Assembly (NCBI RefSeq): GCF_029873635.1
Contig: NC_080419.1
Coordinates: 62,675,540-62,739,539, forward strand
Origin: Malania oleifera
Taxonomy: Eukaryota; Streptophyta; Magnoliopsida; Santalales; Ximeniaceae
Length of the DNA stretch: 64,000 bases
Direction of reading: 5' to 3'
Below are positions 1 through 56,972 of the stretch, piece by piece; within the stretch, counting starts at the first letter, position 1, and each line of letters begins with the position of its first letter. The translations under genes were made by a program, and so were the position numbers. The notes under the pieces were generated by a model. It was not told the DNA's origin and did no database searches. It saw nothing but the letters and a program-made list of their open reading frames with translations.

Positions 1-1281
1 AGTCGACTAAGCCCTGCAAGTCCAGGCAACTGATCCCATTTTGACTTTGATATTACGCTGAATTTCAAAGTCCAGGCTACTAACCCTGCTGAGTCTAGTT
101 GACTAAACTTCATAATGACTATTTTAAAACAACATTTAAAAGTTTTCAAATTATGTTGCTTGTGCCCCAAACTTTGTCAAAACTTGGGAAACACTCCAAG
201 TAACTTGAGCAACACGAAAATATGACTTTTAACTCTATAAATACATAATTTTACAAATCAAATCATATACCAAGAATTCAAAATAGCAATCAAGCTTATA
301 ATTCTCATACTCTTCAAAAAGCCTTCTTGCTCGCATACTTGTTGAAGTTATTCTAAGACTTGTTGAGTTATTTTTTACCGATCTTTGAGCATAAATTTTT
401 AGTTTGATCAATCAAAAGAAATGTCCTGGTGATATATTCTCTGAGCTTTAATTCTATTTTCATTGATATTTAAATTGAAGTATTCTTAGCCATGCTATAA
501 CTTGTACTAATCTGCTCTTTTTGAGAGTGATTCTTGTATGCAAGAAGTTTTCTTGTTTTCTTTGTTTTCTTGACGGTTCAAGTTTGTTGAATCATTGGTT
601 TACTGAGCGTGGGGTATCGATTGGAGAGGAAGACTCTATCCTATTAAAGGAGTGTTGTAAAGGTTTGCTCCGCCCATAAAGGAGTGGTATAGTGGAATAC
701 TTAGGTGTGTTGCCTAAGGCAAGGACGTAGGTAGGTATAGACAAACCTCATAAAAACTCGGTGTCATTCTATTCCGTACTCTCTTTAAATTTCAGCACTT
801 ATAATTTGTGTGGTTGTGTACTTAATTTACTGAATATTAATTTGTCTTTGGGAATAATGGAAACCATAAGGGAGTATGTTGGTTGATCAATACATATTGC
901 GGAAACCATAAGGGAGTACGTTGATTGATTAATACCCAAGGCTCATTAATCCATTGACATATTCAAAAGCCGAATCTTGGAAGCACTGGTGCAATTCATA
1001 CATTGTTTAATTGGTTAACTTGTGGATTGTGTTGGCTCAATGATTGATTTCATTGATTGGATGTTAATTTAAATTGCTGTAAGATCAAATTGATATACTT
1101 TTGCATAAATATTTAAAAATGAATTTGATTCTCAACCGATATTGTAATTGAAATTCAAACCATCCTTGTGTGATTGCTAAATATACAATAAGTTGGGAAA
1201 AAATTTTATAAAAAGAGTTCAAAGAAACTTTAAAAACCCAATTCACCCCCCCCCCCTCTTGGGACTACACCTCACTTTTCA
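1..1281 (+). mobile_element. Partial copia LTR, group A (U3 cut by window edge)
   Basis: The window opens inside the U3 of a Sirevirus-like LTR. Palindrome-type units (AGTCGACTAA at 1, TAGTTGACTA at 96) precede a TATA box (TATAAATA, 235-242). The three-hairpin block follows at 667-752, then two GGAAACC..AAGGGAGTA repeats (858-935), and the conserved end AATTCA plus 11 C, CTCTTGGGACTACACC, finishing in CA at 1281. No primer-binding site follows, so this is a 3' or solo LTR, or a rearranged 5' LTR. The right edge is set by alignment by eye to the LTR ends at 12220 and 35182. The left edge is outside the window. Confidence 0.75.
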
Positions 1282-2565
1282 AGAACATGCCTTAATTTAA
1301 CTATATTATGATTTCAAATGAATCATATCTTTATTGCTTTTGTTTTTTAGTCTTAAGGCACTTCTGAATACTATGAACGTCATATCTGGATTTTATGAAT
1401 CTATGAATAGGTATGGATTGTTCTTAGGTTTTATGAACACCTAACATGACTTAATTTTAGTTCTCCAATGCATGTGTGTTTTGTAGGAATGATTTTACTG
1501 GTTGGATAAAAACGGCTTAATCAATATTTAGTAGAATTGCTTAAAGAATCAAAACTGGTTGTCTATACTGTTTGGCACTTAATGAAATCAATCCTTGATG
1601 AGTATGAGTGATAAATTGCATCTAAGCTAGTACTTAGATAAAAAGGGGGACCTTTTGAACTTAAAATTCTATCTTTTTGTGCTCCCCCATCCTTTGGCTT
1701 AGATTTTTTTTGAAAGCTTACTATGGCATGTATGTTTAGGCAAAAAGATTTTTTTGCTCACACTAAATCTTAAGTGAAAATGTGTTGCTGAGGCACAATT
1801 ATTCTAAGCTTAGCCATATGACCTTGTATTAAACTTTCTAATGTATTTAGGATTTATATGGTTGCCTTTTCTGGTTGAAGCATGAAATGTTTTTAAATAC
1901 TTACTAGAAAAATTTAAGCTTGCTTGACCTTAGTGTTAAAATTATTATATATAGCAAGCATAGTCCCTAGTACTTATTGATGATATCAAAAGGGGAAATA
2001 TTTTACGAAATGAATTTTTTTTTTGTGTGGCAAGAAATGAACTTATAAAAGATAAATCTTATCTCTCGCTTCAAGTTTGTAAGCATAAAGGCATTCATGA
2101 CATGTGTTATTTCCTAAAATTCAATTTTTGTCATGGAGTTAAAAAATTTAAGGGCTCTGTTGTTTAAATGGTCTTCTTAACAAAGGAGAAATATTTAGCT
2201 AATGACAAAAGGGGGAGAAGTTGAGCAAAATTATCGTATAACTTGCATTCTCCTACCCTTTTATTATTCATATTTGGAAATAATTTGTAAGTAGAGATTG
2301 TTGTGACTAAGGGTCTTAACTATATTTTCAACACTCTTAGTAATACTAAAATATAGACATGATAATTATTGAAAAATTGTAATCATTTATGTATCATGTG
2401 ACTTTGCTTATTTAATTGAATATTTTTCAAAGATAGCTTCAATACAAAATACACATTGAACCAAACTAAACTCAAAATTTTCAACTAAAGAATTCAGAGG
2501 TCTTCAACCAAGTTGACCTCATTCTGCTCCTGTGTTTGTCATCATAAAAAAAGGAGGAGTTTGTT
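1282..2565 (+). mobile_element. Non-coding post-pol spacer of a Sirevirus-like element
   Basis: There is no usable reading frame. The stretch resembles the region after pol in Copia-1 (17271-18229). It is AT-rich and carries repeated polypurine runs: AAAAAGGGGG near 1640, AAAAGGGGAAA near 1990, AAAAGGGGGAGAAG near 2208, and AAAAAAAGGAGGAG near 2546 just before a possible LTR start. Several polypurine tracts in this position fit a Sirevirus. The pol that should precede it is missing, so it is a deletion remnant. Confidence 0.5.
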
Positions 2566-2815
2566 TGTTAGGGCTTAAGGTTGATCGATCTGCCACTAAG
2601 GAGCTATGGTAAGTCAAAGAGCGCAGAGAAGATTGCCCACCACTTGTTTTTGTACGTGCTATAAGATATAGGCTTTCTATGAAAGCTCGTAGGATCAGCT
2701 AACAAATCACAGCATCTCATTTTTGTGCTAAGTGTATGAATAGGCTTATTTTTCTGTAAAGTAAAAATGACCGATGCAAAATGGAAGCCATGAAGCACTT
2801 ACATGCTCATATATG
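2566..2815 (+). mobile_element. Possible start of a truncated 3' LTR
   Basis: TGTTAGGGCTTAAGG follows a purine-rich tract, as expected where a 3' LTR begins. After about 250 bases the sequence runs into the reversed LTR at 2816. I recognise nothing else here, and a short minus-strand frame in it looks accidental. Confidence 0.3.
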
Positions 2816-4926: not shown

Positions 4927-7253
4927 TGTTGACCCCATGGGTCATATCCCGATTTTGATAATAAAAAATACTCATGTATTTAATGGATATCTAGATCATG
5001 TGCAGGTCTATATTAGCAGATATATTAATGGCACGTGAAAGCTTAAAGTTGGAAGACCCAATACATGGTGTACTCTATTTCATTATTATTTAAAGGGTTT
5101 CTAATAGTAAATATGGCTTTGATTGTAATAATTGCATGCATCACCTGCATGATGTAATAGGTAAGCTCATAATGCAAATGACCTTATAAAGACCTTAGGG
5201 ATTACCTTTCGGTCGACCGAAATCAGATTTTTTCGGTGTCTTCAAAAAGAACCTAAAAAGGACCCTAGGACACTCACTCATGCATAAACATGTTTGATTA
5301 CTTGAAATTGGATGATTGTTGGATGAAAAAGGACAGAAATGCACAAAATGTGCACTTTTGGTCGACCGACCTAGGAAGTTCATTTTGGCCTTGGTCGATC
5401 GAACCAGGTCTGAGTTAACATGTTGACTGCAGCTCGGTCGACCAAATTGTATAGTTCGTTTGGCCCCGGTCAACCGAACCCTCATGAAATCAACAATTTG
5501 ACTTCCTGGTCGATCGAGACATTTTTGTATTGCACCAACCTGGTCGACTGAGGGTCCTCGGGAGTTGTCTCAATGGTCTGGTTGACCGACAGGCCTAGTT
5601 CAAATCAACTTGGTCGACCGAACCTCGGAAATACGAAAAATCGCCTCATCCGGTCGACCAAAAAGTTAGTTCATTTCAGTCCCGGTAGACCAAACCATGC
5701 AAAAAGGCTTCGGATTTAAAGATTCGGTTGACCAACCTAGGCAATTCAAATTTGGCCTAGTCGACCGAACCATATGAACTTCGGTCGACCGAAAATGTTT
5801 CTGGTCGACCGGACCTCTCGGGTGCCCTGAATTTTTTACCGTGGTTAAATATTTTAAATAGGGTTAATTATTTTAAAATGATTTAAAACTTTCCTAATAA
5901 TGCCAATAGGTCCCCAACAACTATAATTCTTCCATTTTCTATAAATAGTCCATCATTTGCAAAGATTAGTAGAGCATTAGCAATCTTGATTAGGAGAAAT
6001 TTCCTGAAAATCCCAAAACCTATAATACTCATTTTTGAGCCTCCTACACTTATTCTTACCTGATCTTACTACTCAAACTTCTTTGTAAGTGTGTTTAAGT
6101 GTGGTTGTTCTATAGGTTGGCTCTCCTTGCTCTACTTGATTGATATTATTTTTATTGAGAGCAAAACCTTAAGGATTCTTAGGGGACTTTGTTAATAAGT
6201 CTATCCTAAGGAGACTTTGTTAGATCTTCTAAGATTGCACCTTCATTGCAACATCTTGAGAAGATTGTATTTGTTTTTGTTTGCAAAATCCTCTTAAAAT
6301 CATTTTCAAATATCTTGTGTGCTTTATATTGAAAAATATATTTGAAGAGATATTTGTTTATGAGATAAAAATCTTTGTTGCAATATTCATTGACTTACAC
6401 ATTATTTGCTGATACAAAGATTAAATATATTTTGCAAACCAAGCATATACATTATTTGATATTTGCATGATTGAGATATTTTGCTGATTGGAATATTTGA
6501 GACTTGATTGACATCTTTGTTTGAGCATTTAGATTGAATATCTAGTGATACAAAAATCATATAGGTTTGCACTCTCATGCACTAATTACATCGATAGTAA
6601 ATATATCTGAGAGTTGAGATATTTGACCACACTGAGCATACATATTAAATCATATTGTGGTGTATGTAATTGCGCATATTCGGGTACATATCTGTTTTAC
6701 ATGAAAGCACAATCACTATACCGATATTATTTGATTTCAAAATCTATTTTATTTCCAGGCACGGGCCTGAAGAGGGAGACTAGCCCTGGAATAGTCCCAG
6801 ATTAGCTTAGATCCGGTTAGGAAAGCTAGGTGCACCATCCTGTTAAGGCGTGTAGGTTGAGGTCAGCCCCACCAATTGACCTGGTTAAGGTTGAGGTCAG
6901 CCCTGTGCTAATTGACCTAGTTGTAATCGATGCCGCTCCACCCTTAAGTGAGCTATTAGTGGAATCCTCGGGCTTGCGAGCTAAAGGCAGGGACGTAGGC
7001 ACAGTTGGCCAAACCCCGATAACATATCATGTGTTTATTTATATTTTCGGACTTTATATTTACCACATGTGTATGTTATTATGTGAATGATGCGCTTGAT
7101 TTAAATTTTTATATATTATGTTTATCGGCGTATTTGGAACTAAATAGAAAGACACTAGGTTGTAATATTTTGCTAACATCTAGTTCAACTTAGGATAAAA
7201 GTTTAAAATTCCAATTCACCCCCCCCCCTCTTGGGAATACACCAATTCTAACA
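4927..7253 (+). mobile_element. Complete group B solo LTR with 5-bp TSD
   Basis: The element runs from TGTTGACCCCATGGG to ..CACCAATTCTAACA, 2327 bp, in TG..CA form. It is flanked by a perfect target duplication ACTTG (4922-4926 and 7254-7258), and removing it rejoins the older LTR. In order it holds about 15 palindromic GGTCGACCGA-type units (5205-5815, spaced mostly 23-43 bp), a TATA box (TATAAATAG, 5940-5948), the hairpin block (6935-7023), and a run of 10 C near the 3' end. There is no internal region, so it arose by LTR-LTR recombination. Confidence 0.93.
5205..5815. repeat. Palindrome array in group B LTR U3
   Basis: Units centred on GGTCGACC occur near 5212, 5351, 5393, 5436, 5468, 5508, 5542, 5578, 5612, 5651, 5685, 5725, 5759, 5782 and 5805. 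The best unit in related LTRs is the perfect 16-bp palindrome GTTCGGTCGACCGAAC (9441-9456). Variants differ mainly by C-to-T or G-to-A at the CpG positions (GGTTGACCGA, GGTCAACCGA, GGTCGATCGA). The array ends about 125 bp before the TATA box, where enhancers or silencing targets would be expected. Confidence 0.9.
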
Positions 7254-9894: not shown

Positions 9895-10587
9895 ATCTCC
9901 CCTTTTTTGATGATGACAAATACTTGCCTACTTCTCCCCTTTTTGGCAACAACAAAAAGGGTCTAGATAAATCATTTAAGTATATAGGAAAATAAAAGAT
10001 AATTATCATTCAAATATAAATATGATTTTGGGAAACCTTTTTAAAAAATTTCAGCAGCATGCCATTTAAAAATAGAACATTTCCCAAAAGCAATATGTAT
10101 GCCAACGACCTAATTGATTATGAGAATACAATTTTGCCATGACAAACAACTCAATCAATCTAGTATGATCAAGACATAAAATAGAGATATAACTTTCAAA
10201 CATTCAAGAGATAGAATAGCCATACAATAAAAAGTGAATGACAAAGATAATCTCAATGATTAAGAACACAAACAATAAAACTGGTCATTTAAATGACTTA
10301 CATGACATGAGAACAAGGTGTGACAAAAAATATACACAAACCATTGCAATTGAAACATATCATACGACCCGTGAAGGATTTGAGTTAAAAGCACCCGACA
10401 TATGATACCAAATAGAAGGTTTGAGCATAAAAGCAGTCTAACTAGATCGCATGCATTTTCATGTGAAGTTACCGCACCAGTTATACAATTTAAAAAACAT
10501 GTAGTATAAAATAATATTAAGTAAGTGATAAAGAGTTTAGTTTTGAAATTTGATCTTGCCAAAAGTACATGTAAATAAATATTTATG

Positions 10588-10937: not shown

Positions 10938-11530
10938 TGTTAATTTAGATGTAATACCAAGAGGGGGGGGGGGGGGTGAATTGGGTATTTTTAAATTCTT
11001 TCAGATTAATTACCACTTAGTCCCAATTTCTTTGTTTAACAAATTAAATTTAGGAGTTTGGAGCTGATTTAAATTTATTTTATCAATGAATTCTTTTTAC
11101 CCAATTAAGTGCGTGTGGAGTTATTCAACATACACATGCAAGCTCGATATTGAAATATGATGCAGAAAATAAAAAGATAAGGGAAGAGAGAAGGAAAACA
11201 CAAGTTTACGAGGTTCAACCAACCCAGCCTACGTCCTCGCCTTGACCAACCCACTCAAGGATTCCACTATATCCCTGCTCCTTTAACTAGGACAGGGCTT
11301 CCCTTACATCACTGCTTACAAGAGGTACAACTTCCTCCTTACCCAATTCACAACCCGAACCATGATTACAATATAATATCAAATCTGCAAAACAACTCAA
11401 GATTTGCTTCTAACAAAGCTAGTGAGTACAATTGAAATCCTAACACATATACATATGATGAAACTCGAAGCTTAGTATGTATGTAATGATATAATCGTTA
11501 GATGGATGATATGCTTCAACACACAATTTC
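10938..11530 (-). mobile_element. Group A-like LTR fragment, reversed
   Basis: Read on the minus strand this ends ..CACC plus 14 C (10953-10976 region), CTCTTGGTATTACATC..AACA. The hairpin block is at 11205-11298. Its U3 and promoter are missing. It abuts, head to head, the forward LTR that starts near 11531; the two share the general layout but differ in sequence. The right boundary is approximate. Confidence 0.6.
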
Positions 11531-12220
11531 CTTTTTGTTGTAAGGTTTTTGTTCCACCTAGAAGGAACAAGGTATAGTGAATTCCTTAGGTGGTTGACCT
11601 AAGGCGAGGACGTAGGCTGGGGTAAGCCGAACCTCGTAACAATGGTGGTGTCACTCTCTTTCCCTTACTCTCTTTTACAGTTAAGCAACGATATAACTTG
11701 CATGGATGTTTTAATATTTTTTAATCATAAAGTAACGCATATTGGAAATTAAGTAAACCCAAAGTCTAATTTGTTTTTGGGCTTGCGAAAACTAAAAGGG
11801 AGTATGTTGGTTAATTGATCTTTTGTGGAAACCGAAATAAAGTACGTTGATTGGTTAAGATCCCAAAACCTATTAGCTGAAGGTTTATTTAAATTATGAT
11901 ATTAAAAAGGTGCTTGGATGTCATTTTAATATTCAAATTCAAAAGCCAACTACAGGAACTTCACATTCATATACAGGGTCGCTAAATATTCCAAATTGAT
12001 TTCTTGGTGTATGGTTGTTTTGCTTGAATAGTTGATTGATTGATTGTGGTTGTTGTGATTGTGGATTAATTAGAGGAAATAGGAGTTTGTGTGGATTGTC
12101 TGCTTAACAAGAATACAAGAAAGCCTTAAAAGATTGTAAAAAGGAACAAAAAGGATCTTAAGGAATTTTTAAAACACCCAATTCACCCCCCCCCCTCTTG
12201 GGACTACACCTTAGGTTTCA
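11531..12220 (+). mobile_element. 5' LTR of Copia-1, U3 lost
   Basis: This holds the hairpin block (11551-11640), a pyrimidine-rich stretch ending in TTTTACAG (11655-11681) that could be a splice acceptor, the AAGGGAGTATG repeat (from about 11790), 10 C, CTCTTGGGACTACACC and a final CA at 12220, two bases before the primer-binding site. The matching 3' LTR starts at 18230 (TGTTGGCCTAATT), but here everything upstream of the hairpin block is gone, so the copy has no promoter. Confidence 0.75.
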
Positions 12221-21412: not shown

Positions 21413-23203
21413 TGTCGTCCCAAGAGTATATAGAGTCAGAGGGGGGTGACTGGACTCTTTTGTGTATTATCGACTTTCTCTACAAAATAAAACTCTTGGC
21501 AAGATACAAGCAATTATATCACAATATATAAAAAGTGAATCAAGCACAAGACATAAATTAAAAAGTATAGGGAGAGAAAGCTTAACACTAGAGTTTAACG
21601 TGGTTTGGCACCAAGCCTACGTCCACACCTTGAGACCAACTCAAACATTCCACAATTCACTATAAAATCCTTCACTGACGGAGAAGCCTTACACTCAGGA
21701 ACAAATCCCTGCCGTGCTCACCAAGAGCTGCAAGGTTCACCAAGAAGCCTTGCAAAATGGTTCACCAAGAACCTTCACCAATTGGTTCACAAACAACCTT
21801 TACAACAAGAAGATGATAAAAAATGATGCACCTTAAATAAGTTGATTGCAAATACAAAACAAACCTCACACTTAATCTCTCAAGTAAAGATTCACATAAG
21901 ATTAGAGAGCAAAAGAGAATTTGAGCACTTGTGAATATGAACTAAAATGCAAAGTGCTTAGGGTTGAATTCAAATGATGTTTTTCACCACTTGTAAACCC
22001 TCAAAAACTTATTTAATCAAGTCTATGGACTTGTATTTATAGCCAAAAATGGGCTACTAGCTTGTTTATGATCGTTGGGGGGGTGATATATTATATGTAC
22101 AAATTGAAAAATAGTCATTCATAGCTATTAGGGACTGAATCCAGAAGCCAATCGTCGACTATTTGACCCCATTCGTCGACTATTAACACCCATTGTCGAC
22201 TAATTGTCCTCATTCATCGACTATTAGCATTATGCCTAAATTCGTCGATGAATTACCCCAAATTGTCAACAATTACCCCAAACTAGAATCAGTCATCAAC
22301 ATAAAAGTTATGGAATTTTTTCTTAGCTTCCCATAGATTTCAAATCATCCTTTTTGGACTTTGTTTGCAAAAGTTATGCCCCAAATACCTAAGGGTGTTT
22401 AGGAAATTTGATAGGTACATAACTGAGGTTTTAAGTACAAGCAGAACCAAGTTTGTAAAAGATTATAACACTAATATGATTTAAAATTTGTCCTTATGAA
22501 AATATACTTCATTTAATTGAATCTTTAGGTACATAAAAATAGTTTTGACTCAACCGGGACCAAGTATTTAAAAGTTTATAATACTAAGATGTTGAAAACT
22601 TGTCCCTTATGAAAACATATTTGAGTATAGGATTCTTTTGTCAAACTCTTTGCTTTATCTTTGAAAACTATGAATAATGAGCTTATGACTTAGTGAAATC
22701 CCATATACTCATGTGTCCTAATATGCATATGCAAATTGCTCAACTCTTGCTTTAAAATCATGCGTGAAACAAAAACCACAAGGGTTACAAATACTACTAC
22801 CTCAAACACTCCCTAATACAAATAATACTACAATAAGCTTCCTTTGGTGTGCTTGAGTCCTTTCCGAGTGAGTGTCCATTTGATCTTTCCTTCTTGACAT
22901 CTACCCAGTCCAGTATTAGCTTTTGATCCAGTACTTCATGTATTTGTCACTTGAACCTGTACTAAACATGATCTGCAAAGATGGAATGCACTAGTAACTA
23001 CAAATAGGTTAGAATCATCAAAACATATTAAACATAATTATGTAGCAGCCCCCTTTTTGATGATGTCTAACCTATTAAGATTTTACTTAATCTTTGCATT
23101 TGTGTTTGTGCTTAATTTGCAAATATTAGTTTAACTCGAACCACTAATGTGTCGTTATCATCAAAACAAGACAATTAAGCTTATGTAGCCACCAAGGCTA
23201 ATA
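21413..23203 (-). mobile_element. Left LTR of element C, reversed
   Basis: On the minus strand this begins TATTAGCCTTGGTGGC after a polypurine tract (AAAAAAAGGGGAGAT, reversed, 23204-23218) and ends CTCTTGGGACGACA. It contains the CGTCGACTATT-type repeats at 22150-22290 and the hairpin block at 21597-21687, where the outer stem of the third hairpin is TGTGG/CCACG instead of CGAGG/CCTCG. A plus-strand ORF here (21462-21665) is accidental. Confidence 0.75.
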
Positions 23204-27705: not shown

Positions 27706-29357
27706 TGTCTACCCAGGAGTATATAGAGTCAAGGGGGGGGGGGTGAATGGACTCTTTTTCGCATTATCGGCTTTCTCTAAAAAATAAAACTATTGGCAAG
27801 ATACAAACAATTATGTCACAATATATAAAAAGTGAATCAAGCACAAGACATAAATTAAATAGCATAGGGAGAGAAAGCTTAACAACATAGTTTTAACGTG
27901 GTTCGACACCAAGACTATGTCCATGCCTTGATATCAACTCAAGGATTCCAGAATCCACTATAAACTCCTTCACTAGTAAAGAAGCCATACACTCAGGAAC
28001 AAATCCCTACCGCACTCACCAAGAGCCGCAAGGTTCACCAAGAAGCCTTGAAAAATGGTTCACTATGAACCTTCACCATCAATTGGTTTAAGAAAAACCT
28101 TTATAACATGAAGATGATTTACAAAATGATGCTCCTCAAATGAGCAAATTGCAAATACAAAACAAACCTCACATCTAATCTCTCAAGTAAAGATTCACAC
28201 AAGATTAGAGAGCAAGAGAGAATTTCAACACTTTTGAATATGAACTAAAATTCAAAGTTCTTAGGGTTGATATCAAATGATGTTTTTCAATAAAAACTTG
28301 TAAACCCTCAAAAACTTGTTTAATCAAGTCTATGAACTTGTATTTATCGCCAAAAAAGGGCTACTAGCTGTTTTATTGTCGTTGCGATGATATGTTATAT
28401 GTTTAAATTGAAAACTAGCCATTTATAGCCATTAGGGATTGAATCCCAACACCAATCGTCGACTATTTGACCCCATTCATCGAATATTAACACCCATCGA
28501 CTAATTGCTCCCATTCATCGACTATTAGCATTCTGCCTGAATTCATCGACGAATTAACTCAAATAGTCAACAATTATCCTAAACTAGAAAAATTCATGAA
28601 CATAAAAGTTGTGATATTTTTTCTTAGTTTTCCATAGATACTAAGATCGTCCTTTTTGGACTTCTCTAGCCAAAGTAATGCCCCAAATTACGAAGGGTAT
28701 TCAGGAAATTTGATAGGTGCATAATTGAGGTTTTAAACCCAACTAGGACCATGTTTGTAAAAGATTAGAACACTAATATGATTTAAAACTCGTCCTTATG
28801 AAAATATACATAATATAATTGAATCTTTTGGTACATAAAAATAGTTTTGACTTGATTGAGACCAAGCATTTAAAAGTTTGCAATATTAAGATGTTGAAAA
28901 CGTGTTCCTTATGAAAACATATTTTGAGTATTGGATTCTTTTGTCAAACTCTTTATTTTATCTTTGAAAAGCATGAATAATGAGTTTTTGACTTAATAAA
29001 ATCCTATATACTCACGTGTCCAAATATGCATATGCAAATTGCTCAACTCTTGCTCAAAAATTGTGCATGAAACAAAAACCGTAGGAGTAACAAATACTAC
29101 TACCTCAAACACTCCCTAATACAAATAATTCTACAATAAGCTTCCTTTGGTGTGCTTGAATCCTTTCCGAGTGAGTGTCCATTTGATCTTTCCTTCTAGA
29201 CATCTACTTAGTTTGATCTTTGCCTTTGATTTAGTATTTCATGTATTTGTCACTTGAACATATACTAAACATGATCTACAAAGATGAAATGCACTAAGAA
29301 CAACAAATAAGTTAATATCTTCAAAACATATTAAACATGATTATGTAGCTACCAAGG
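27706..29357 (-). mobile_element. Right (5') LTR of element C, reversed
   Basis: This aligns by eye to the left LTR: the same CGTCGACTATT repeats (28455-28590), hairpin block (27895-27986) and G run (11 G, 27733-27743). Its start on the minus strand lacks the last few bases: at CCAAGG (29352-29357) it passes directly into the inverted LRR pseudogene fragment, which shares CCAAGG at the same place. Confidence 0.75.
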
Positions 29358-31941: not shown

Positions 31942-32441
31942 TGTTGTGAAAAACAAATTGCTTAGCGGAATATATGATCATACAAATGCAGCACTCAATG
32001 CTAAACTATACAGAAACAATCCACAACAATTATATGAAAGCAATAAAAAAAAATATACAAGGAATTATGTGGTTCGGCAATGCCTACATCCACGGGAACA
32101 AACGACAATGATTTCACTATTTTCTTGTCCAAAGAACATTAACAATACATCAACCATTACAAATACATCACAATCAATGTATATATAAAGTTCCCAGAGG
32201 TTTTCCCTCCAAACCCCAACCAACTTAACGTCCCTTATTCAAAATTTGATATCCGCACAAGGTTTCCTGAGCCAAACTGTCGGCGGTTTCAGGCAAAGTG
32301 TAAAATCTCTCAGACACTACTCCAAACTATCGATGGTTAGAGAGCTACCGTCGATGGTTTCCTCTGTTACTGCTTGATTTCCTTCATCTTTTCCCTTTTT
32401 TGCATGCTTTCCACTCAGTATGTGAGTCACATATCACAACA
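31942..32441 (-). mobile_element. 3' LTR of old copia element F, reversed
   Basis: On the minus strand this begins TGTTGTGATATGTGAC at 32441, after a polypurine tract (AAAGTGGAGAT, 32442-32452 reversed), and ends ..TTTTTCACAACA at 31942, 500 bp in all. It carries short palindromic units (AAACTGTCGGCGGTTT, AACTATCGATGGTT, ACCGTCGATGGTTT at 32272-32362), a TATATATA box near 32180, and at 32067-32098 the third hairpin of the shared block. The other two hairpins are not clear. Confidence 0.75.
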
Positions 32442-33289
32442 ATCTCCACTTTAGTGAACATACGCCCCTTAGAACAAACTGAAAGCATAAACCCGTTGCT
32501 CCACCTTGACCTTAGGACATTAAGTTTGGATTGTTTCCCTTATAACAGCTGGAGACAAAAACCAGGTCCAAGCAAGGCTTGAACTTTCCTGTGGCAGCTT
32601 CGGCTTCTGCCATGAACCCTGACTCAGTTGTAGACGTTATACCCGAAGACTGTACCTTGGACTTTCAACAAGTAGGCCTTCCCATAACAATAAATATAAA
32701 CCCTGTTATAGACCTTCTACCATTAGAGCCCCATGCATAGTCTGCAACAACAAATCTCACAACTGACTGACCCTGTTGAAATTTTCTATTATCATCTCAC
32801 ATTGTATAGGATACGTATCAAATGAAGAACATGTTGATATCCCTGATTATTAAGGATTTAGTTTGATAAAATTTACACACTCGTCCAATCTAATGCAATT
32901 TCTTTCTTTTCACTAGTAAATTTATTAATTTCATCTATAGTATATTCTTCACTTTGACCTTAGGACATTAGGTTGGGACTGTCTCCCTTATAGCAAAAAG
33001 AGACAAAAACCAAGTCCAACTATGGCTTAAACTTGCCTGTGGCAGCTTCGGCTTCTACCATGAACCCCAACTCAGTTATAGAGTTTATGCCCGGAGACTG
33101 TACATTGGACTTTCAATAAGTAGGCCTTCCCACAACTATAAACATAAACCCTGTTGTAGACCTTCTGTCATTAGAGCCCCCTGCATAGTCTGCAACAACA
33201 AATCTCACAACTAACTGACCACGTTGAAATTTTCTATTTTCATCTCACATTGTGTAGGATACGTATCAAATGAAGAACATGTTGATATA
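32442..33289 (-). pseudogene. pol: Element F RNase H fragments, tandemly duplicated
   Basis: The minus strand encodes a decayed copia RNase H: VADYAWGSNGRRSITGFIF, then MGRPTC-KSKVQSS, then TESGFMAEAEAATGK. The piece occurs twice, at about 32497-32955 and again from about 32956 to 33289, with its tail continuing at 56973-57090 beyond Copia-2. The period is about 455 bp. Stops occur in both copies. Confidence 0.75.
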
Positions 33290-34020: not shown

Positions 34021-34574
34021 GCGGGATTTTAAATTTTGAACTTTAACAGGAAAATTCTAAAAATTATTTTTTTCAAAGATGAACGTTATAAAAACTTGGT
34101 GGACACTCTAAGTAACTTGAGAAAAAAGGAAACTCATCCTAAAAAGTTTATAAATACTCCTTTAAACCTAAAAAATCAAATCACCAAGCAATCACACAAC
34201 ATTCAAGCATTCAACTCTCAATCTCTCACAAAGCTCTTTCTTGCTCACACTCTAACTAGGAGAATTCATCTGAATTGCTGCTGATTCATAAGCCTATGAT
34301 TCTAATACCGAGTTTTCTCAATAACTAAAGAACCCTTGGTGATCTCTAATCTTGAGCTTCATACTTTCTATTTTTATATTTGATTGAAGTATATTTAAGT
34401 GCTTTAACTTGTATAAATTTAATCTGTTTTGAGAGTTATCTTGTACACAGATTCTTGTACCTTTCTTGTTGTACTTTGACGATTCAAGGCTGATTTGGAT
34501 CGTTGAACCAAGTGTGGGTTGATGGCTTGGAGAGGTTTCTTTTCCTGAAAAAGAGGGATTTTTGTAAAAGGTTT

Positions 34575-34666
34575 GCTCCACCCAGAAAGGAGCGTTCATG
34601 GTGGAATCCTTTGGTGGTATTGACCAAAGGAGAGGACGTAGGTTGGGGATAAACCGAACCTTGTAA
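34575..34666 (+). promoter_or_regulatory. Three-hairpin block in the transcribed part of the LTR (example copy)
   Basis: Hairpin 1 is GCTCC-acccagaaa-GGAGC. A linker GTGGAATCC-type sequence follows. Hairpin 2 is CCTTTGGT-ggtattg-ACCAAAGG. Hairpin 3 has an outer GAGG/CCTT stem, an internal loop ACGTA/GAA, and an inner GGTT/AACC stem. It begins about 426 bp after the TATA box, so it should be in the 5' leader of element RNA. The same layout recurs in at least 15 other LTR copies with compensatory changes. The function is unknown to me; packaging, dimerisation or translation control are possibilities. Confidence 0.65.
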
Positions 34667-35184
34667 AAACATGGTGTTCTTCTTTTCCTATTCTTTTAAA
34701 TTTCAGTACTTCATATATTGTGTGTGTATATGCTAAGTGCAGGTTACAGGGCTCAAACGTTGAATTAAAAAGAAGACTCTTAATTTAACGAAAGTACATT
34801 TTAATTAACCGTTTGCGGAAACCCACAAGGGAGTATGTTGGTTAATTTACGGAAATCTTAATTAAGAAAATGCAATAAAATAATTCAAAAACAAGGCTTG
34901 CAATTTACTTATAGGGCTACTTACAAATGCAAAAGTTGAAATTCCACAAAGGACTTCAAATTGTGATTGGTTTGGTATTTGTGGTTAGTTACTCTTAAAT
35001 TGATTGGTTGTTTAAGTTTTCAGTTAATTTGTGGATTGTTTGAGTTTTAATTGTGAATTGATTGGTTTACTTAAGTTTTTTTGTGTGTATTAAACAAGTA
35101 AGTAAAAATTTCTAAAAGGAAGTTAAAGATTTTAATAACCCAATTCACCCTCCCCCCTCTTGGGATCATTATTCCACTTTCAAT

Positions 35185-38415: not shown

Positions 38416-40522
38416 TGTTAGCTTTGGTGCAATCCCAAAGGGGGGTGAATTAGGTATTTAAAAATTATCGCCTAGGTCAATTGGTTTAACGGCAGTATTA
38501 CACAACCTAGGGTCAGTCTATGCAATCAATAAATAAACATACACGTGCAAAATAAATGTAAAGTGCAAAAAGTAAACAATACATGCAATATGTTATCGAG
38601 GTTTGGCCAAATTGCCTATGTCCCTGCCTTGGCTATACCAGCACAAGGATTCCACTATGGCTCACTTAACAGGTGGAGAACCACCGATTACAACCAGGTA
38701 AATTCAAGGGGCTGACCACAACCAACACGCCTTACCAGGATGGCGCACCTAGATTTCTTAACCGGGTCTAAGCCAATCTAGGACTATTCAACAAGACTAG
38801 TCTCCCTCTTCAGGCCCACGCTTGGAATACAACAAATGATACTAAATTTTGTACACAAAAATGTGCTTCTTCACAAGCAGATATGTACACCAGTATAGCT
38901 CAAGAAATATTGCAAGCATGTATGATATGTAAATATGCCTAGTTCTCTAATGTGTGCTAAACGCTCAAACAAGTGTAGATTATTCGTCCAGATCTAGAGT
39001 GTATATAAAAGCAAAATTTGAAACACAGTATTTGAATATCACAAAATCAGATCAATGTTTTAAATATGCTAGCTAGTTTATTCAAAGAAACTCAACAAGA
39101 TATTCTCAATGAACTAACTACTAGGAGTGTTTGAATACAAGTTTTGAAAATGATTTTGCACACAAAAAATATAGGTTTAGGTGTCTTGTAATGACAATGC
39201 AAGAACCACAACCTTTCAAGTCTTCCCAAACAAGATTTATCAAATAAAATCGATGGAAGAACATAAGGCTATACTCTCAAATAAAATCAATCAAATAATA
39301 TAGCAAATGAGAGTACTAGCTAGTGAGATTAAGCACAAGAACTTTAGAAATACTGACAACACTTGAAGAATCAAGAAGAATGAAGTTTTGAAGTGTGTGG
39401 GAGTAGTTTAGGCTATAAAATGATTTTTGAATTTGAGAGAATTTTGGCCTTACTAATCTTGCTAATCTTGCCTTAATTTTGCAAATGAAGAGATATATAT
39501 AGGCATAGGAAAAATAATGATCGTTGGAGACACCAAGGGTATTATTAATATTGTTTTAAAACTTTTTATAATTAACCCTGTTTAAAAATTTTAACTGTGG
39601 TAAAAAATTTTCCCAAACCGAGAGCACCGATCGACCAGACTTGAGGTTCGGTTGACCAGGTGACCAAGTTCGATCAACCAGGAGAAATTTGAACTGAGAG
39701 TTTGATCGACCGAACTAAGTGTCCCAAGGGCAATTTTTCATTCTAGCACGGTTCAATTGACTGAGACACTTTGAACTAAGATGTTTGGTCGACCAGACAA
39801 TTGTGGCATCTCTCGAGGACCTTTGGTCGACCTGGGCATTGAAGTGCTTTCCAAGTCAGTCGACTAAAAGGTCAAAGTGTTGACCCCAGGGAGTTCGGTC
39901 GACTAGTAGTTTTGAACTGAGCAAGTTCGGTCGACCGTATCATGGTCAAACTGTTGACTTGGTGATCGATTCGGTCGACTGATAGATTTACACTGTGAAA
40001 GTACGATCAACCGAACATGCATTTTTAATGCATTTTGATCGTATTCCCTATGTATATTAACTTTATTCATATAATGATTAATGTTTAAGACTATAGGTCA
40101 TATTTTTATAAATTATAGGAAGTCCTAAGGTCAGTCTAGGTCTTCTTTAGGACACCAAAAAAATCTGGTGTTGGTCGACCAAAGGGTGATCCCTAAAGTC
40201 TTTCTATGGTTTGTGTAGGTACCAAAAGTCTAACTAGGGTCGATTTTAGCATATCTACCTATCATACATGATGCAAATTATTACAAGCCATAGGAGTGTG
40301 CAGTCCATATTAATATTACATCCCAAAATGAAGAAAGTGAAAAAGAATTACAAATACAACACAGAAAACTTCATTCTTTGGCACGAACACCGCACGCCAT
40401 CATGGTATGTCTTTTAGTCAGAATACACGTGCACAGTGCACCTGCATACAAGCCTTAGTACAACCACCAGTACCAAGAGTATTTATCATGATCAAAACTG
40501 GTTGTGACCTATTAGGTCAATA
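38416..40522 (-). mobile_element. Group B solo LTR, reversed, with perfect TSD
   Basis: On the minus strand TATTGACCTAATAGGTCACAACC to ..CCTTTGGGATTGCACCAAAGCTAACA, 2107 bp. It is flanked by TTACT (38411-38415 and 40523-40527). The first dinucleotide TG has mutated to TA. The palindrome array is at 39620-40190, the TATATATAG box at 39493, and the hairpin block at 38594-38679. It sits in the gag coiled-coil region of Copia-2. Confidence 0.9.
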
Positions 40523-40579: not shown

Positions 40580-42554
40580 TGTAACATCCTCAAAATTCTT
40601 ACCATTATATATATATATATATATATATGTATATCTACATCCATATGTACGCAGCGGAAACACAAATCATATAACCATTTATATACATACTATACAATAC
40701 CAGAATACAGTATATACAAGTCATAATCATACAAAATAAACCCCTCCAGCATCATCTATCTAAAAAATACAAAACTCTGTCATGACTCACCCTACAACCG
40801 AGGTAATCAAGTAAACTTCCTATCTGCGAGCCTAATCTGCTCGCCTAGCTATCTCACCTAAAAAATGGTAAAGTAATGGGGTGAGTCAACGCACAGTAAG
40901 TGGAAATATGCTATTACTAGTGTGTGGCGACCGAGTCATAAAATTATAATAATAGTATTTTAAAACTGCATAATCTGGAAATTCTGTACAACACATATAT
41001 AATAACTTAAAGCATTTGTATCATCTGAACTTCCTATCATTCATAGTGCTACATCATATTATATACAATAAAAGGTGCAAAATTGTATGCATATACATAA
41101 CTGTGTTCTTTCCCTAGGACTCTGTATGTCATGATTTGACCCCTCATGACAGGATTGTGCGGCCCGTAGGCAGGACTTAACCTGGTCGGCCCTCCAGGTA
41201 AATCACTATACTTTACACTACCTCAGCTCGGCCAAACTGCATACTCTCCTAGGTGCGAGACTGGTTGCTACCTCGTTAAACTGGCCCCCCTCAACCCAAC
41301 GAACTGGGGAGCTGCATACTCTTTGAGCACGGCTGACGATACCCACACACTATCTGAGATATGTGGTTGCACTCTATCTATATCTAGCAACGGTACCGTG
41401 CTCTGTAAACTGTATTTATCTGTAATAACTCCATAGGGATCTGATACTATATAAGTACATCTATATATATATATATATACCTTTGTTGTTTTCATTATGT
41501 TTCCAAAATAACCATAACGTTATAATTCTGTAGTGTGAAATCTGAGTAACTGTAGCATCTCGATACTATAACTGTATAATCTGTCTTCATAAACTATGTG
41601 TTATGGTATTCAAGAAAACATAGCATTCTGTAAAAACTATGAAATACTGAACTAAATAAAATCTATATAAATCTGTCTGTTAATCATTCGTGACTAACTG
41701 TATATACATGCTATATAACAAGATATGCTGAAGTATTGTATAAATTTTACATCAGGTAAATATCTACTCAGGCCACACAACATTAAAACATTCGTTCTGT
41801 AGAAACTGCATAATAACTAGTATATATATGTATCTATGAAAACTATGTTAATATTCTTAAAACCCTAGCATAGCATATTTCCTTTACCTGTTTCTTGCTA
41901 CAAATCCTCTACTATAATGGGTCCAACACCCACAGGGTTCCCCACTCAACACCCTAAAAACCTTAAATCTCAGAACAAAACATTCCTATTTCTACATCTA
42001 TTACATTTCTCACAACTGCTAGAAACCCAAATTCCAAATAAAATACCTTACCTTGGATTTGGGATGAATTCCAACTTCGTTCCACCTACGATCCGCTCTG
42101 GTAGACTTGAAGAGAACTCCGCCAGGAACATCGTGGTAGCCTCAGATCGTCGATCCGGTGACTAATAGGGCCAGAATTGAAGAGAGAAGAGGGAGGAGCC
42201 GTAGGGGTAGAGAGAGAGACAGGCTGCGGCAAATTTCTATGATTAAAATCAATTTAGGGCTATTTATACTGCGGAATTCATCGACGAGCCACGTCACCTC
42301 ATTGACGAGTCTTTCAATAATTTCATCGACGAACTTCCTCCTTCGTCAACGAATTTCAGTATGTTCTATGAACCCTTCTCGGTATCTTCTCGTCGACGAA
42401 CTCCCTATGTTCGTCGACAAGGCCTTATGTAAATTTTCGGGTTATTCCATCCAAAATGTAATGTCGTCGATGAAGCCTGCTGCCTCCTTCCGTTTCTATT
42501 TCCATTTCCCTCTCTTTTTAATATTTAAATACCATTATTTTTTGAGTCATTACA
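40580..42554 (-). mobile_element. 3' LTR of gypsy D
   Basis: 1975 bp, running on the minus strand from TGTAATGACTCAAAAAATAATGG to ..TTTTGAGGATGTTACA. The TTCGTCGACGAA-type palindromes are at 42270-42480. TATA-like and (TA)n tracts lie at 40602-40630 and 41461-41480. A segment of about 404 bp (roughly 41037-41460) is present here but absent from the other LTR. Confidence 0.88.
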
Positions 42555-47527: not shown

Positions 47528-49098
47528 TGTAACATCCTCAAAATTCTTACCATTATATATCATTATATATATATATATATATATATCTACATCCATATCT
47601 ACGCAGCGGAAACACAAATCATATAACCATTTGTATACATACTATACAATACCAGAATCTAGTATATACAAGCCATAACCATACAAAATAAACCCCTCCA
47701 GCATCATCTACCTCAAAAATAAAAAACTCTATCATAACTCACCCTACAACTGGGCTAATCAAGTAAACTCCCTATTCGCGAGCCTAATATGCTTGCCTAG
47801 CTGTCTCACCTGAAAAATGGTAAAGTAATGGGGTAAGTTGACGCTCAGTAAGTGGAAATATGCTATTGTTAGTGCGTGGTGACCGAGTCATAAAATTATA
47901 ATAATAGTATTTTAAAACTACATAATTTGGCAATTCTGTACAACACATATATAATAACTTAAAACATTTGTATCATTTGAACTTCCTATCATATATATAT
48001 ATACCTTTGCTGTTTTCATTATGTTTCCAAAATAACCATAACGCTATAATTCTGTACTGTGAAATCTGAGTAACTGTAGCATCTCGATACTATAACTGTA
48101 TAATCTATCTTTATAAAGTGTGTTATGGTATTCAGGAAAACATAGCATTCTGTTAAAAGTATGAAATACTAAACTGAATAAAATCTATATAAATCTCTCT
48201 GTTAATCATCTATGAATAACTGTATATACATACTATATAACATGATATGCTGAAGTACTGTATAAATTTTACATTAGGTAAATATTTACTCAGGCCACAC
48301 AATATTAAAATATTCGTTCTGTAGAAACTGCATAATAACTAGTATATATATGTATATATGAAAACTCTGTTAATATTCTTAAAACCCTAGCATAGCATAT
48401 TTCCCTTACCTATTTCCTACTAAAAATCCTCTACTATAATGGGTCCAACACCTGCAGGGTTCTCCACTCAACACCCTAAAAATCATAAATCCCAGAACAA
48501 AACATTACTATTTCTACGTCTATTACATTTCTCATAACTGCCAGAAAACCAAATTTTGAATAAAAGACCTTACCCTGGATTTTGGATGAATTCCAACTTT
48601 GTTCCACCTACGATCCACTCTGCCATACTTGAAGAGAACTCCACTAGGAACATCGTGGTAGCCTCAGATCGTTGATCTGGTGACTGACGGGGCCAGAATT
48701 GAAAAGAGAAGAGGGAGGAGCCGTAGGGGTAGAGAGAGAGAGAGAGATTGCGGAAAATTTCTACGATTAAAATCAATTTGGGTCTATTTATACTGCGGGA
48801 TTCGTCGACGAGCCACGTCACCTCATCGACGAGTCCTTCAATAATTTCGTCGATGAACTTCCTTCTTCGTCGATGAATTTTAGTCTGTTCCAAAATCCCT
48901 TCTTAGTGTCTTCTCATCGATGAGGCATAGCTTTGTTGACGAGGCCCTATGTAAAATTTTCGGGTTATTCCATCCAAAATGCAATGTCATCGATGAACGC
49001 GAAGCGTTTGTCGATGAAGTTTACTGCCTCCTTCCGTTTCTGTTTCCATTTTCCTCTCTCTTTAATATTTAAATACCATTATTTTTTGGGTCGTTATA
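47528..49098 (-). mobile_element. 5' LTR of gypsy D, with internal deletion
   Basis: 1571 bp. On the minus strand it starts TATAACGACCC (TG changed to TA) and ends GGATGTTACA. It aligns with the other LTR except for about 404 bp missing between CTTCCTATCAT and ATATATATACC near 47995. The TTCGTCGACGAA-type palindromes are at 48798-49015, and a (GA)n run lies at 48732-48746. Confidence 0.88.
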
Positions 49099-54200: not shown

Positions 54201-54815
54201 TGTTTAGTGTATGCTTATATGCTCGATTTCAATCAGCTCTTAAAGAATCCCATCAAATGGCTATAAAAAGAATTATAAGATGCTTATTAGGAATCATTGA
54301 TCTAGGACTATGGTATCCAAAAGACACCGAATTTGAAATAACTAGTTATTCGGATTGCCGACTATGCCGAATGCAAGATTGATAGAAAAAGAACAAGTGG
54401 CACATGTCACTTCCTAGGACGTTCCTTAGTATCATGGTTTTCAAAGAAACAAAACTTAGTAGCCTTATCAACTGCTGAGGTCGAGTATATTGTAGCCAGG
54501 TGCTGCTGTGCATAAAGTCTATATATGAAACAACAATTAAAAGATTTTAATCTAAAATATAAAACAATACCAATCAAGTGTGATAATACCAGGGCAATAA
54601 ATATATCTAAAAATCCTATATTACACTCTAGAACAAAACATATTGATATCAAACATCACTTTTTAAGAGATCATGCTCAAAAAGAAGATATAACTCTTGA
54701 ATTTATCAATACAAATGATAAATGGGCTGATATCTTTACTAAACCTCTCCCAGAAGATAGATTCATATCCATTAGAAGAGAACTTGGTCTATTACATAGT
54801 ATAGATATTGTGTAA
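51238..54815 (+). pseudogene. pol: Copia-2 reverse transcriptase and RNase H, split by a solo LTR
   Basis: RT starts after the stop at 51235 (FERSKV, a TGA, IGTK then a second TGA for the conserved Trp) and reaches ASVGKMEAIRMLLAYTS at 51480. The B solo LTR occupies 51482-53560. RT resumes with HKEFKLYQMDVKSVFLNGY, keeping the first catalytic Asp missing in Copia-1, then ALYGLKQAPRAWYERL and IYVDDIIF (about 53845). RNase H spans 54014-54815 over shifts and stops: KRTSGTCHFLGR, ALSTAEVEY, CDNTRAINISKNP, FTKPLPEDRF. A 27-bp near-duplication at 54163-54212 doubles the RPDIMFSVC motif. Confidence 0.88.
51482..53560 (+). mobile_element. Group B solo LTR inside Copia-2 RT
   Basis: TGTTGACCTTATAGGTCATGCCC to ..TTGGGATCACGGTAAAGCTAACA, 2079 bp. 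Palindrome array 51775-52290, TATA-like TGTATATAC at 52411, hairpin block 53271-53362. The left flank CATCT is matched on the right only as C--CT, so the target duplication seems to have lost two bases. The host RT frame continues on both sides. Confidence 0.88.
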
Positions 54816-54837
54816 AGAATCAAAATTTAGAAAAGAT

Positions 54838-55070
54838 CAACAGTCAGCCGATTGACCAAAGGCCTAGCCGTCTAACTGAACGAATGTGCATTAAGAGGGT
54901 TACAGCTAGCCGAATGATCAAAGGCCCAGCCGACTGACTGGACCATTTCCTCTGAAACAACAAGCAATCAGCCAACTGACCATGGATTCAGCTGACTGAC
55001 TGACGGAAATCTCCAAAACTCGTTTATAAAACCTTAGTCCTTCGAGTGGTCAGTCAACTGACATAGGGTT
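54838..55070. repeat. Post-pol palindrome array in Copia-2
   Basis: Begins about 20 bp after the pol stop. Units include CAGTCAGCCGATTGACC, CAGCCGACTGACTGG, AATCAGCCAACTGACC, CAGCTGACTGACTGAC and GTCAGTCAACTGAC. It is the same motif and the same place as in Copia-1 (17046-17270) and is followed directly by the accessory ORF region. Confidence 0.85.
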
Positions 55071-55998
55071 TGTACTCCACTCATGCTCTCATTCTCTCCT
55101 ATTCCTTTGTCCTTCCTCCTCCAAATCTACTAAAACCTAATCATCCATCTTCCATTCCACACGTAATCCTTAGGGTTTCCACCTTCAGGTTTCAAAGAAA
55201 GTTCAAAAATTCCGCGAACCAAAAGTGTTGGAAGCAAGAAACCCTCCACTTCTTCTCAACCAATTGAGGATTCTTCTATTGAGCAATGGCTAGTAGCTCC
55301 GAATGGCAAGAGTTTTCATTGAAATCACCTAAGCACTACGGATCCAATACTAGGTAAAATTCTTGACTCTTCATTTTTCACATCCGATTTCCCTCACATC
55401 CTTTCATTGTCTGAGGCCCTAGGATGGAAAAATTTTATTTTGTATCAAGCCAAGAGACACTTTCCAAAACTTGTCAAAATTTTCTATGCAAATTTGGTTA
55501 AGGAAGAAACTGGGCTTACTACCAAGGTTATGGGAAAAACTATTTCTCTCACTCCCAATTCTCAAGCCAATTTTTAAAATCACCAAAGGAGATTTCGAAT
55601 GTCCTCCTTTTGGTACCGCATGGATCTTAGAACAAGGCTTTACTCCTAAAGAGTTCCTACCCTTGATATTGGACACCGAGCCTATTTTATTTGACAATCC
55701 TCCACTATACAAACATATGAACCTTCAAGCTCAAATTCTTCAGAAAATCACCACTTATAATATGCTTCCTCAAGCTGGTTCACACGCATATATCTCCTAC
55801 TTAGACTACTTCATACTTTGGTGCTTGCTCAAGGGCAAGAAACTTGACTTGCCTAATCTAATGCTAAAATGGATGATATCTCTCACGTGGAAGCAAGGCG
55901 AGTTACTCTTCCCTATGGAGGAATCCTAAATCAACTCTTTACTAAGATGCAAGTATCCTCTCCTTCTAATTTCTTTGTGAAACGAATCCATTACGACA
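55071..55998 (+). pseudogene. Copia-2 accessory ORF (plant transposon-associated domain, broken)
   Basis: The first part, from about 55205, reads VGSKKPSTSSQPIEDSSIE in one frame, followed by AKRHFPKLVKIFYANLV and TTKVMGKTISL (about 55450-55550). A frameshift then leads to the open stretch ending 55929 (GDFECPPFGTAWILEQGF, SYLDYFILWCLLKGKKLDL), and another shift leads to LPYGGILNQLFTKM. The FYANL, V.GK.I and LPYG..L motifs resemble the putative plant transposon protein domain (Transposase_32 family) often seen beside retroelements. Its role is unknown. It is in the position of the env-like ORF of some Sireviruses, but no transmembrane segment supports an envelope. Confidence 0.65.
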
Positions 55999-56972
55999 TT
56001 TTCAATTATTCAACTCTCAATCTCTCACAAAGCTCTTTCTTGCTCACACTTCATCTGGGAGAATTCATCTGAATTGCTGCTGATTCATAAGCCTACGGTT
56101 CTAATACTAAGTTTTCTCAATCACTAAAGAACCCTTGGTGATCTCTAATCTTGAGTTTCATACTTTCTATTTTTATATTTGATTGAAATATATTTAAGTG
56201 CTCTAACTTGTACAAATTTTCCCTGTTTTGAGAGTTATCTTGTACACAGATTCTTGTACCTTTCTTGTTGTACTTTGACGGTTCAAGGTTGATTTGGATC
56301 GTTGAACCAAGCGTGGGTTGATTGCTTAGAGAGATTTCTCTTCCTGAAAAAGAGGGATTTTTGTAAAAGGTTTGCTCCACTCGAAAAGGAGCATTCATAG
56401 TTGAATCCTTTGGTGGTATTGACCAAAGGCGAGGACATAGGTTGGGGATAAGTCGAACCTCGTAAAAACGTGGTGTTCTTCTTTTCCTATTCTTTTAAAT
56501 TTCAGTACTTCATATATTGTGTGTGTATATGCTAAGTGCAAGTTGCAGGGCTCAAACGTTGAATTAAAAAAGAAGACTCTTAATTTAACGAAAGTACGTT
56601 TCAATTAACCGTTTGCGGAAACCCACAAGGGAGTAAGTTGGTTAATTTATGGAAATCTTAATTAAGAGAATGCAATAAAATCAATTCAAAAACAAGGCTT
56701 GCAATTTACTTACAGGGCTACTTAAAAAGGCAAAAGTTGAAATTCCACAAAGGTCTTCAAATTGTGATTAGTTTGGTATTTGTGGTTGGTTACTCTTAAA
56801 TTGATTGGTTGTTTAAGTTTTTAGTTAACTTGTGGATTGTTTGATTTTTAATTGTGAATTGATTGGTTTACTTAAGATTTGTTGTGTGTATTAAATAAGT
56901 AAAATTTGTAAAAGGAACTTAAAAATTTTAATAACCCAATTCACCCCCCTTGGGATCACTATTCCATTTTCA
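55999..56972 (+). mobile_element. 3' LTR of Copia-2, U3 deleted
   Basis: This matches the 5' LTR from about 34208 (TTCAACTCTCAATCTCTCAC) to its end and includes the hairpin block (56374-56466). The polypurine tract, LTR start, palindromes and TATA box are missing; the accessory ORF region joins directly at about 55998. The C tract is reduced to 6 C and CTCTTGGGA to TTGGGA. Confidence 0.85.

Follow-up and report, generated by a model that had tools for sequence, protein, structure and literature searches.

The window analysed here, 64,000 nucleotides of the genome of Malania oleifera (C3:62675540-62739539 within the 1.49-Gb host genome), consists of nested, decayed plant Copia DNA, and the named matches of its reverse transcriptase fragment are plant proteins (120 of 7836, among the matches listed). 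An earlier note, made from the sequence alone, had described in its long terminal repeats (LTRs) a block of three successive RNA hairpins at 16 places. The block is present at all 16 of them, and its core pattern GGACRTAG...SAACC has 10 exact matches in the window compared with 0.04 expected. The limits given for the copies hold as places, except that the copy at 35871 extends a little more, to 35856. A covariance model, R1, with 98 positions and 22 pairs was trained on the 15 full copies and thus recovers those by construction; outside this training set it recovered a copy at 32060-32150 on the minus strand (E 0.006), where the note had seen the third hairpin only and where a fuller block is found. 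The copies are listed below, the group letters (A, A2, B, C, D, E) being labels assigned in the present analysis and the bit scores those of R1; a copy such as 11551 is named by its first position in the earlier note.

662-758, plus strand: block copy, group A (Sirevirus-type LTR), 77.4 bits
3297-3394, minus strand: block copy, group A, 83 bits
6930-7026, plus strand: block copy, group B, 76.4 bits
8004-8097, minus strand: block copy, group B, 76.2 bits
11201-11303, minus strand: block copy, group D, 77.2 bits
11546-11644, plus strand: block copy, group A, best three-hairpin example, 89.7 bits; all three hairpins in the minimum-energy fold, z -2.8
11551-11568, plus strand: hairpin 1 of the 11551 copy, from the fold
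11584-11604, plus strand: hairpin 2 of the 11551 copy, 8 bp, from the fold
11605-11636, plus strand: hairpin 3 of the 11551 copy, outer stem of 5 bp and inner stem of 4 bp, from the fold and the stem table
11610-11614 opposite 11629-11631, plus strand: internal loop in hairpin 3 of the 11551 copy, ACGTA opposite GAA
19142-19239, minus strand: block copy, group E, 59.6 bits
21591-21689, minus strand: block copy, group C, 59.4 bits
25679-25775, plus strand: block copy, group B, 74.3 bits
27889-27987, minus strand: block copy, group C, 60.6 bits
32060-32150, minus strand: block copy in a different Copia LTR type, 23.2 bits; 30 family loci
34570-34671, plus strand: block copy, group A, 89.4 bits
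35856-35956, minus strand: block copy, group A2, 82.9 bits
38589-38684, minus strand: block copy, group B, 75.2 bits
53266-53365, plus strand: block copy, group B, 73.2 bits; hairpins 2 and 3 in the fold
56369-56470, plus strand: block copy, group A, close kin of the 34570 copy, 89.8 bits

Three further R1 matches at 9901 (minus), 14145 (plus) and 3103 (minus) with E values of 0.037, 1.7 and 2.3 in a scan up to E 10 were taken as chance; the first of them adjoins a polypurine tract (PPT).

The stem variants quoted in the earlier note are present in the sequence. In hairpin 3 the outer stems include CGAGG/CCTCG, CGTGG/CCACG, CAAGG/CCTTG and CAGGG/CTCTG, the inner stems include GGCT/AGCC, GGTT/AACC, GGTC/GACC and GGC/GCC, and the internal loop is mostly A(C/T)GTA opposite GAA. 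The CAAGG/CCTTG outer stem recurs in L076, i.e., some of the stem variation is found at the family level. Many letters in and beside the internal loop are invariant. The parts said to be constant are so to a different degree, as among the 15 full copies ACGTA is exact in 12 and GAA in 10, with seven of the eight exceptions being of the CpG type, while GTGGAATCC between hairpins 1 and 2 is exact in only five. Hairpin 1 is weakest in group B, as had been claimed for some of these copies. The 32060 copy retains hairpin 3, an ATAGTG link and a possible short hairpin 1, whereas hairpin 2 is not recognisable, and within its family both ATGTA and GAA are found in 29 of 30 copies each. Hairpin 3 is common to a second kind of Copia LTR, in which the outer stem is different. 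The letters GUA opposite GAA between two stems are present in hairpin 3 at the level of sequence, and this arrangement is taken here to be the signature of the bulged-G motif (sarcin-ricin, loop E); hairpin 3 would differ from the motif in that C or U replaces the usual first A and in one extra A.

Pairing in the window copies was compared with that in displaced and simulated alignments. Run without guidance, RNAalifold predicted both hairpin 2 and hairpin 3, with 12 pairs in total, and four of these have changes on both sides. In the 15 full copies 84% of the stem cells are paired, compared with 26-51% if the partners are slid by 1-3 columns. Under a branch-wise tree null the observed percentage paired was reached in 0/1000 replicates, the number of cells with both sides changed in 12/1000 and the covariation score in 4/1000 (0, 15 and 2 with a tree from the unpaired columns); under a rate-keeping null the values were 0/1000 for both-changed cells and 7/1000 for covariation. 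Moreover, G.U exceeds A.C on the sense strand with 36 versus 14 cells.

These observations were extended to the host genome, the search of which gave 2521 first-look candidates for the block at 667 and 1693 for the one at 32060, with 40 scored each. For the majority of the 30 loci in the 32060 family, the R1 match falls where the block was expected (E up to 1). In seventeen 10-kb stretches at round coordinates 10 blocks scored E 0.01 or lower, all within seven of the stretches, and therefore the genome is roughly estimated to carry tens of thousands to about 100,000 blocks. Alignment A6 comprises 36 blocks, i.e., the 16 of the window, the 10 of the coordinate-picked stretches and 10 from 8 of 38 BLAST loci; 86.1% of its stem cells are paired compared with 27-48% after sliding, and the covariation is 0.349 compared with 0.194 (sd 0.012) in shuffles. 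Leaving out the partial L116 row and every row that was 85% or more like one already kept reduced the alignment to 27 rows, for which the whole structure gave 0/600 on both nulls in all three measures. Hairpin 2 alone reached 0/600 for covariation and 1/600 for percent paired, each on both nulls. The outer stem of hairpin 3, the register of which is fixed by flanking anchors, is 94% paired versus 77% in the rate null, with covariation at 1/600 (rate) and 0/600 (branch) and both-changed cells at 9/600 (rate) and 4/600 (branch). For the inner stem the branch null gave 2/600 for covariation and 6/600 for percent paired. Hairpin 1 also gave 0/600, but with a register chosen by the model. On the sense strand 59 G.U face 19 A.C cells. 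The pair at columns 96-124, which is the middle pair of the hairpin 3 outer stem and not a CpG position, is A-T, T-A, G-T or G-C in 34/35 rows, and the minimum number of double changes not bridged by G.U is two each for the pairs 96-124, 53-88 and 107-115. A strict descriptor of hairpin 3, applied to 14 stretches, was discarded as too loose (seven matches, three of them block-like, versus a resampled mean of 1.55 with a largest value of 5).

Decay of CpG sites could mimic compensation, because two CpG losses convert CGAGG/CCTCG into CAAGG/CCTTG. As a control, the 32060 family, and it alone, was examined in 30 copies obtained by BLAST, one of which is the window copy. The outer stem departs from CGTGG/CCACG in 25/150 cells, of which 21 are broken, three are changed on one side but kept and one is a double compensation; the lone double compensation is itself of the CpG type, as are 22 of the 25 departures in total, and no copy departs at the middle T-A pair. 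For this family, copy-specific CpG decay is shown to account for part of the stem variation. Within a family decay breaks the outer stem, whereas change between lineages keeps the pairing, and since 21 of the 25 departures break the stem, the pairing between families is not just the product of mutation bias.

The block also stands out from its surroundings. In pairwise global alignments, expressed as z-scores for the block and for 100-nt flanks with the 32060 copy excluded, the 15 between-group comparisons gave mean values of 4.3-14.0 for the block, -0.6 to 4.4 for the upstream flank and 1.4-5.4 for the downstream flank, which retains some alignment signal between groups. The statement that the host LTRs otherwise differ is correct between groups but not within them, where the flanks align too: LTR stretches in A and in B are about 70-75% alike outside the block, and the pairs 34575/56374 and 21597/27895 reach 93% and 86%, respectively. 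Because of this likeness within groups the copies represent about a dozen lineages and not 16.

Most of the block-bearing LTRs look Sirevirus-type, and one family looks Tork-like. A C-rich integrase signal near the LTR 3' end was found for 14/16 of them (12 by pattern scan, 8009 on the minus strand by reading and 35871 on the minus strand by a separate check) and was not seen for the minus-strand copies 19147 and 32060. Such a signal near the LTR end is described for Sireviruses in the available passages of Bousios et al. (2010; PMC2829016). The C-rich signal in the window forms the loop of a short inverted repeat, the arms of which vary by group yet pair (CCCAA/TTGGG, ATTCC/GGAAT, AATACC/GGTATT, AGAGTC/GACTCT), and by its letters this repeat might be a second covarying hairpin near the LTR end; none was found around the signal at 38423-38461 (minus).

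Inverted repeats with the C-rich signal as loop, plus strand: 1230-1274, 7203-7246, 12170-12213, 56928-56965
Inverted repeats with the C-rich signal as loop, minus strand: 10945-10992, 2821-2862, 21424-21461, 27717-27759

The junction CA/ATTGG/TATCAGAGC at the 5' LTR end follows two of the 16 copies (11551 and 34575, both plus strand), and group C has a variant of it. Most other copies are without a primer binding site (PBS) within 900 nt, as expected of solo, 3' or cut LTRs. Four PPT-like sites (GGGGGAG followed by AT/TG) occur, two of which deviate by one letter or none where chance gives a mean of 0.16, and these sites are not tied to each block-bearing LTR. The element around the 32060 copy is presumably a Tork-like Copia; RNase H-like fragments were recognised by reading upstream of this copy, where 32499-32840 and 32947-33288 form a tandem duplication of 89% identity over these fragments. 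The LTRs with the blocks at 11201-11303 (minus) and 11546-11644 (plus) belong to different groups and lie head to head with about 250 bp between them; neither has a TATA pattern upstream and both seem cut short. Elsewhere in the window, the stretches 40580-42552 and 47528-49096 repeat one another; they are 88-92% alike, lie at a distance of about 6.5-7 kb and contain no R1 match.

With respect to the transcription unit, a TATA pattern lies up to 1050 nt upstream in 26 of the 36 blocks compared with 44% of random stretches, which is a modest excess, a PBS lies up to 900 nt downstream in 11 of the 36, at 57-635 nt, compared with 4% of random stretches, and both are found for eight blocks. Where a TATA pattern is found the block lies downstream of it, as had been claimed, but not close to it in the Sirevirus-type LTRs of the window, where the distance is about 350-1000 nt: groups A, C and E show about 350-490 nt, A2 shows 693 nt and B about 820-990 nt, compared with about 40-55 nt in 32060-type LTRs (38 nt in the 32060 copy), and a few rows deviate from these group values. 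A promoter element is unlikely in most groups, as the block lies hundreds of nucleotides downstream of the TATA pattern. A mini-intron around hairpins 2 and 3 (AG|GTATAG...TTTCAG) was rejected on reading because its GT is not kept between groups, and an antisense open reading frame through the block had no protein match. The 50 nt after the block are rich in pyrimidines in the 16 window copies (mean 0.69 C+T, range 0.64-0.84), compared with 0.50 (sd 0.095) in background 50-mers, and this tract 3' of hairpin 3 ends in TTTCAG or similar in several copies.

Searches beyond the host genome returned little. Rfam 15, to which the earlier note had pointed, gave no match at the gathering score in the window for any of 4227 families, and one chance match (E 5.1) around the 11551 copy. 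In viral contigs 66 matches to the core pattern were seen, none of which had the context of the block on reading, and no Copia proteins were confirmed there; R1 at up to E 1 gave one match (E 0.77) in 47 of these 66 contigs picked by the core motif (480 kb), which speaks for its specificity. The core pattern had no match in GTDB contigs. A Copia reverse transcriptase alignment found three GTDB contigs with Copia pol and without the block, all short scaffolds (L067 and L068 from Labilibacter sediminis, L069 a contig of a Eubacterium metagenome-assembled genome), and these are probably eukaryotic contamination. The pol of L068, used as query against the RNase H-like fragments near 32060, gave no match at E 1e-4, which decay could also explain. 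Among primers in the literature, 28 citrus primers (14 pairs) for LTRs in inter-retrotransposon amplified polymorphism include the LTR 7 and LTR 9 reverse primers, which hold GTAGGC and GCCGAACC and thereby both sides of hairpin 3, and the LTR 5 and LTR 10 reverse primers, which hold its 3' side CGAACCACGTAA only; which of them are Copia is not stated in the available passages (PMC7876178). The BARE-1 primer LTR6150 holds GGTTCGGC alone and was not counted, and a barley gene primer was regarded as a chance match. The MADC2 hemp primers with GACGTAGG were not taken as the block; they look derived from random amplified polymorphic DNA.

Taken together, it is judged rather probable that the block is a real, structured and lineage-spanning cis-acting RNA element in the transcribed part of plant Copia LTRs. 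Selection on RNA shape, considered plausible in the earlier note, is backed for hairpins 2 and 3 by covariation above tree-aware nulls and by the excess of G.U over A.C, and for hairpin 3 also by its presence in a second kind of Copia LTR, while hairpin 1 is not secured, as in the added rows it depends on alignment freedom. Further points weigh against this interpretation. The covariation score exceeds the nulls, but no single pair is family-wise significant on the 15 window copies (best 0.15), and neither the pairs with both sides changed (202/1000) nor the summed G (198/1000) is unusual on the branch-wise null (218 and 243 with the tree from unpaired columns); percent paired stands at 56/1000 under the rate-keeping null. 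In the 27 rows the rate null leaves little support for the inner stem of hairpin 3 (covariation 25/600, percent paired 106/600), the independent double changes are few (at most two or three per pair), several added rows are of one family (four from the 32060 family), and the coordinate-picked rows were found with a structure model and lean toward pairing. Between groups A and E the block (z 6.7) does not stand out clearly from its flanks (4.4 and 5.2). The minimum free energy beats shuffles at z < -2 in just 5/16 copies with a mean z of about -0.7, so the fold is better than shuffled sequences in a weak sense, and on reading of the folds the 11551 copy alone has all three hairpins at minimum energy; fold energy by itself gives little support for a selected shape. 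Finally, the distance from the TATA pattern spans about 40 to about 1000 nt, so that no function linked to the 5' end of the RNA readily suggests itself.

As a working model, the block would be placed downstream of the promoter and upstream of the PBS, and judging from the order of TATA pattern, block and PBS it would lie in the leader of the genomic RNA and be carried in it. There it would fold as two or three short hairpins, the most constant of which, hairpin 3, would present the A(C/U)GUA/GAA internal loop between two short stems as a putative protein-binding module of the bulged-G type. Selection may keep this shape in active master copies, with dead copies decaying mostly by CpG loss. 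Hairpin 3 would most likely be recognised by Gag, by the virus-like particle or by a host factor, so as to mark or handle the genomic RNA for packaging, dimer formation or the start of reverse transcription; this role of the block is inferred. The more far-reaching version is tentative and rather unlikely: hairpin 3 could be an ancient RNA tag of Sirevirus and Tork-type Copia, kept while the rest of the LTRs was nearly all replaced, by which a conserved protein (Gag or a host factor reading loop E) sorts genomic RNA into particles.

Other functions would account for parts of the data. The hairpins together with the pyrimidine tract might aid ribosome initiation or passage over a long leader by internal entry or shunting, an idea fitting the tract after the block in the 16 window copies and the leaders, hundreds of nucleotides long from the presumed start in several groups. 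However, the block is internal to the LTR; where a PBS was found downstream, 57-635 nt separate the two, and gag is more distant. The 32060-type block, about 40 nt after the TATA pattern, would need no shunt, and a 3'-end or promoter-type signal would explain the tract equally well. These points make a translation element improbable. Plant 3' ends are often pyrimidine-rich and T-rich. As such a stretch follows the block, and as an LTR location places it at both RNA ends if it is in R, the structure in the 3' LTR might instead shape the choice of polyadenylation between the LTRs; this is less probable still, since TATA distances from about 40 to about 1000 nt would demand a highly variable R length.

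The block might finally be read as sequence, i.e., as a DNA or linear RNA motif without a selected fold, its pairing being due to homology and to CpG decay that mimics compensation. The many invariant letters in and near the internal loop, the route from CGAGG/CCTCG to CAAGG/CCTTG by CpG decay, the unremarkable energies and the single pairs that fall short of significance all agree with this. Nevertheless it is rated the least probable of the explanations considered: within one family decay disrupts the stem, the outer pair with the strongest covariation swaps A-T for T-A where no CpG is involved, the letters of hairpin 2 differ across several lineages, and G.U exceeds A.C on the sense strand.

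LTR retrotransposons fill much of many plant genomes, and few of their cis-acting RNA signals were met in the literature searched. If the structured element is real, a shape conserved across Copia lineages would offer a handle on packaging and reverse transcription, and it would allow LTRs and solo LTRs to be detected by structure. Moreover, it would provide an internal contrast between constrained masters and dead copies under CpG decay, and what Gag reads in plant genomic RNA would become directly testable.

No description of the block was found in the open literature searched, in so far as its passages were available, subscription papers being outside this scope. Nearest to it come the leader structures of Ty1, the BARE signals and the Conserved Hairpin Site of GalEa, the first and the last of which differ in place and shape. 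The non-coding motifs known from Sireviruses, i.e., TATA, RM boxes, a PPT inverted repeat and a polyC integrase signal, resemble the block as short conserved islands in fast-changing LTRs of the same kind of host element; the parts of that paper examined describe no hairpin block downstream of TATA, and its main text has no occurrence of the word hairpin (PMC2829016). Profile hidden Markov models of Sire and Retrofit LTRs concern the same LTR class but the available passages report a very short R together with the motifs TATATA and CAACAAA, and not the present block (PMC3601003). The Conserved Hairpin Site of GalEa, a fungal Copia, is built from a complementary pair of 9-bp sequences immediately behind the 5' LTR, in elements that lack a PBS (PMC5445492, in part). 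It too is a hairpin retained across distant Copia families, with a supposed function in transposition; it differs from the block, which lies inside the LTR and has a PBS downstream in 11 of the 36 cases. The 5' leader of Ty1, a yeast Copia, holds a terminal pseudoknot, dimerisation palindromes and tRNA-annealing boxes (PMC9503155, in part). The similarity is that of structured cis-acting RNA in a Copia-type leader, with links to dimer formation, primer annealing and reverse transcription; the block differs, as far as the descriptions can be compared, in being a local row of hairpins that lies inside the LTR and has a fixed internal loop. Among plant elements, BARE, a barley Copia, is mentioned in the available passages as having conserved signals for dimerisation and packaging, with no structure or position given (PMC3735527). 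If the reading of hairpin 3 as a tag were true, it would amount to a cis-acting RNA element that spans lineages of plant Copia and goes beyond the single-family signals mentioned for BARE.

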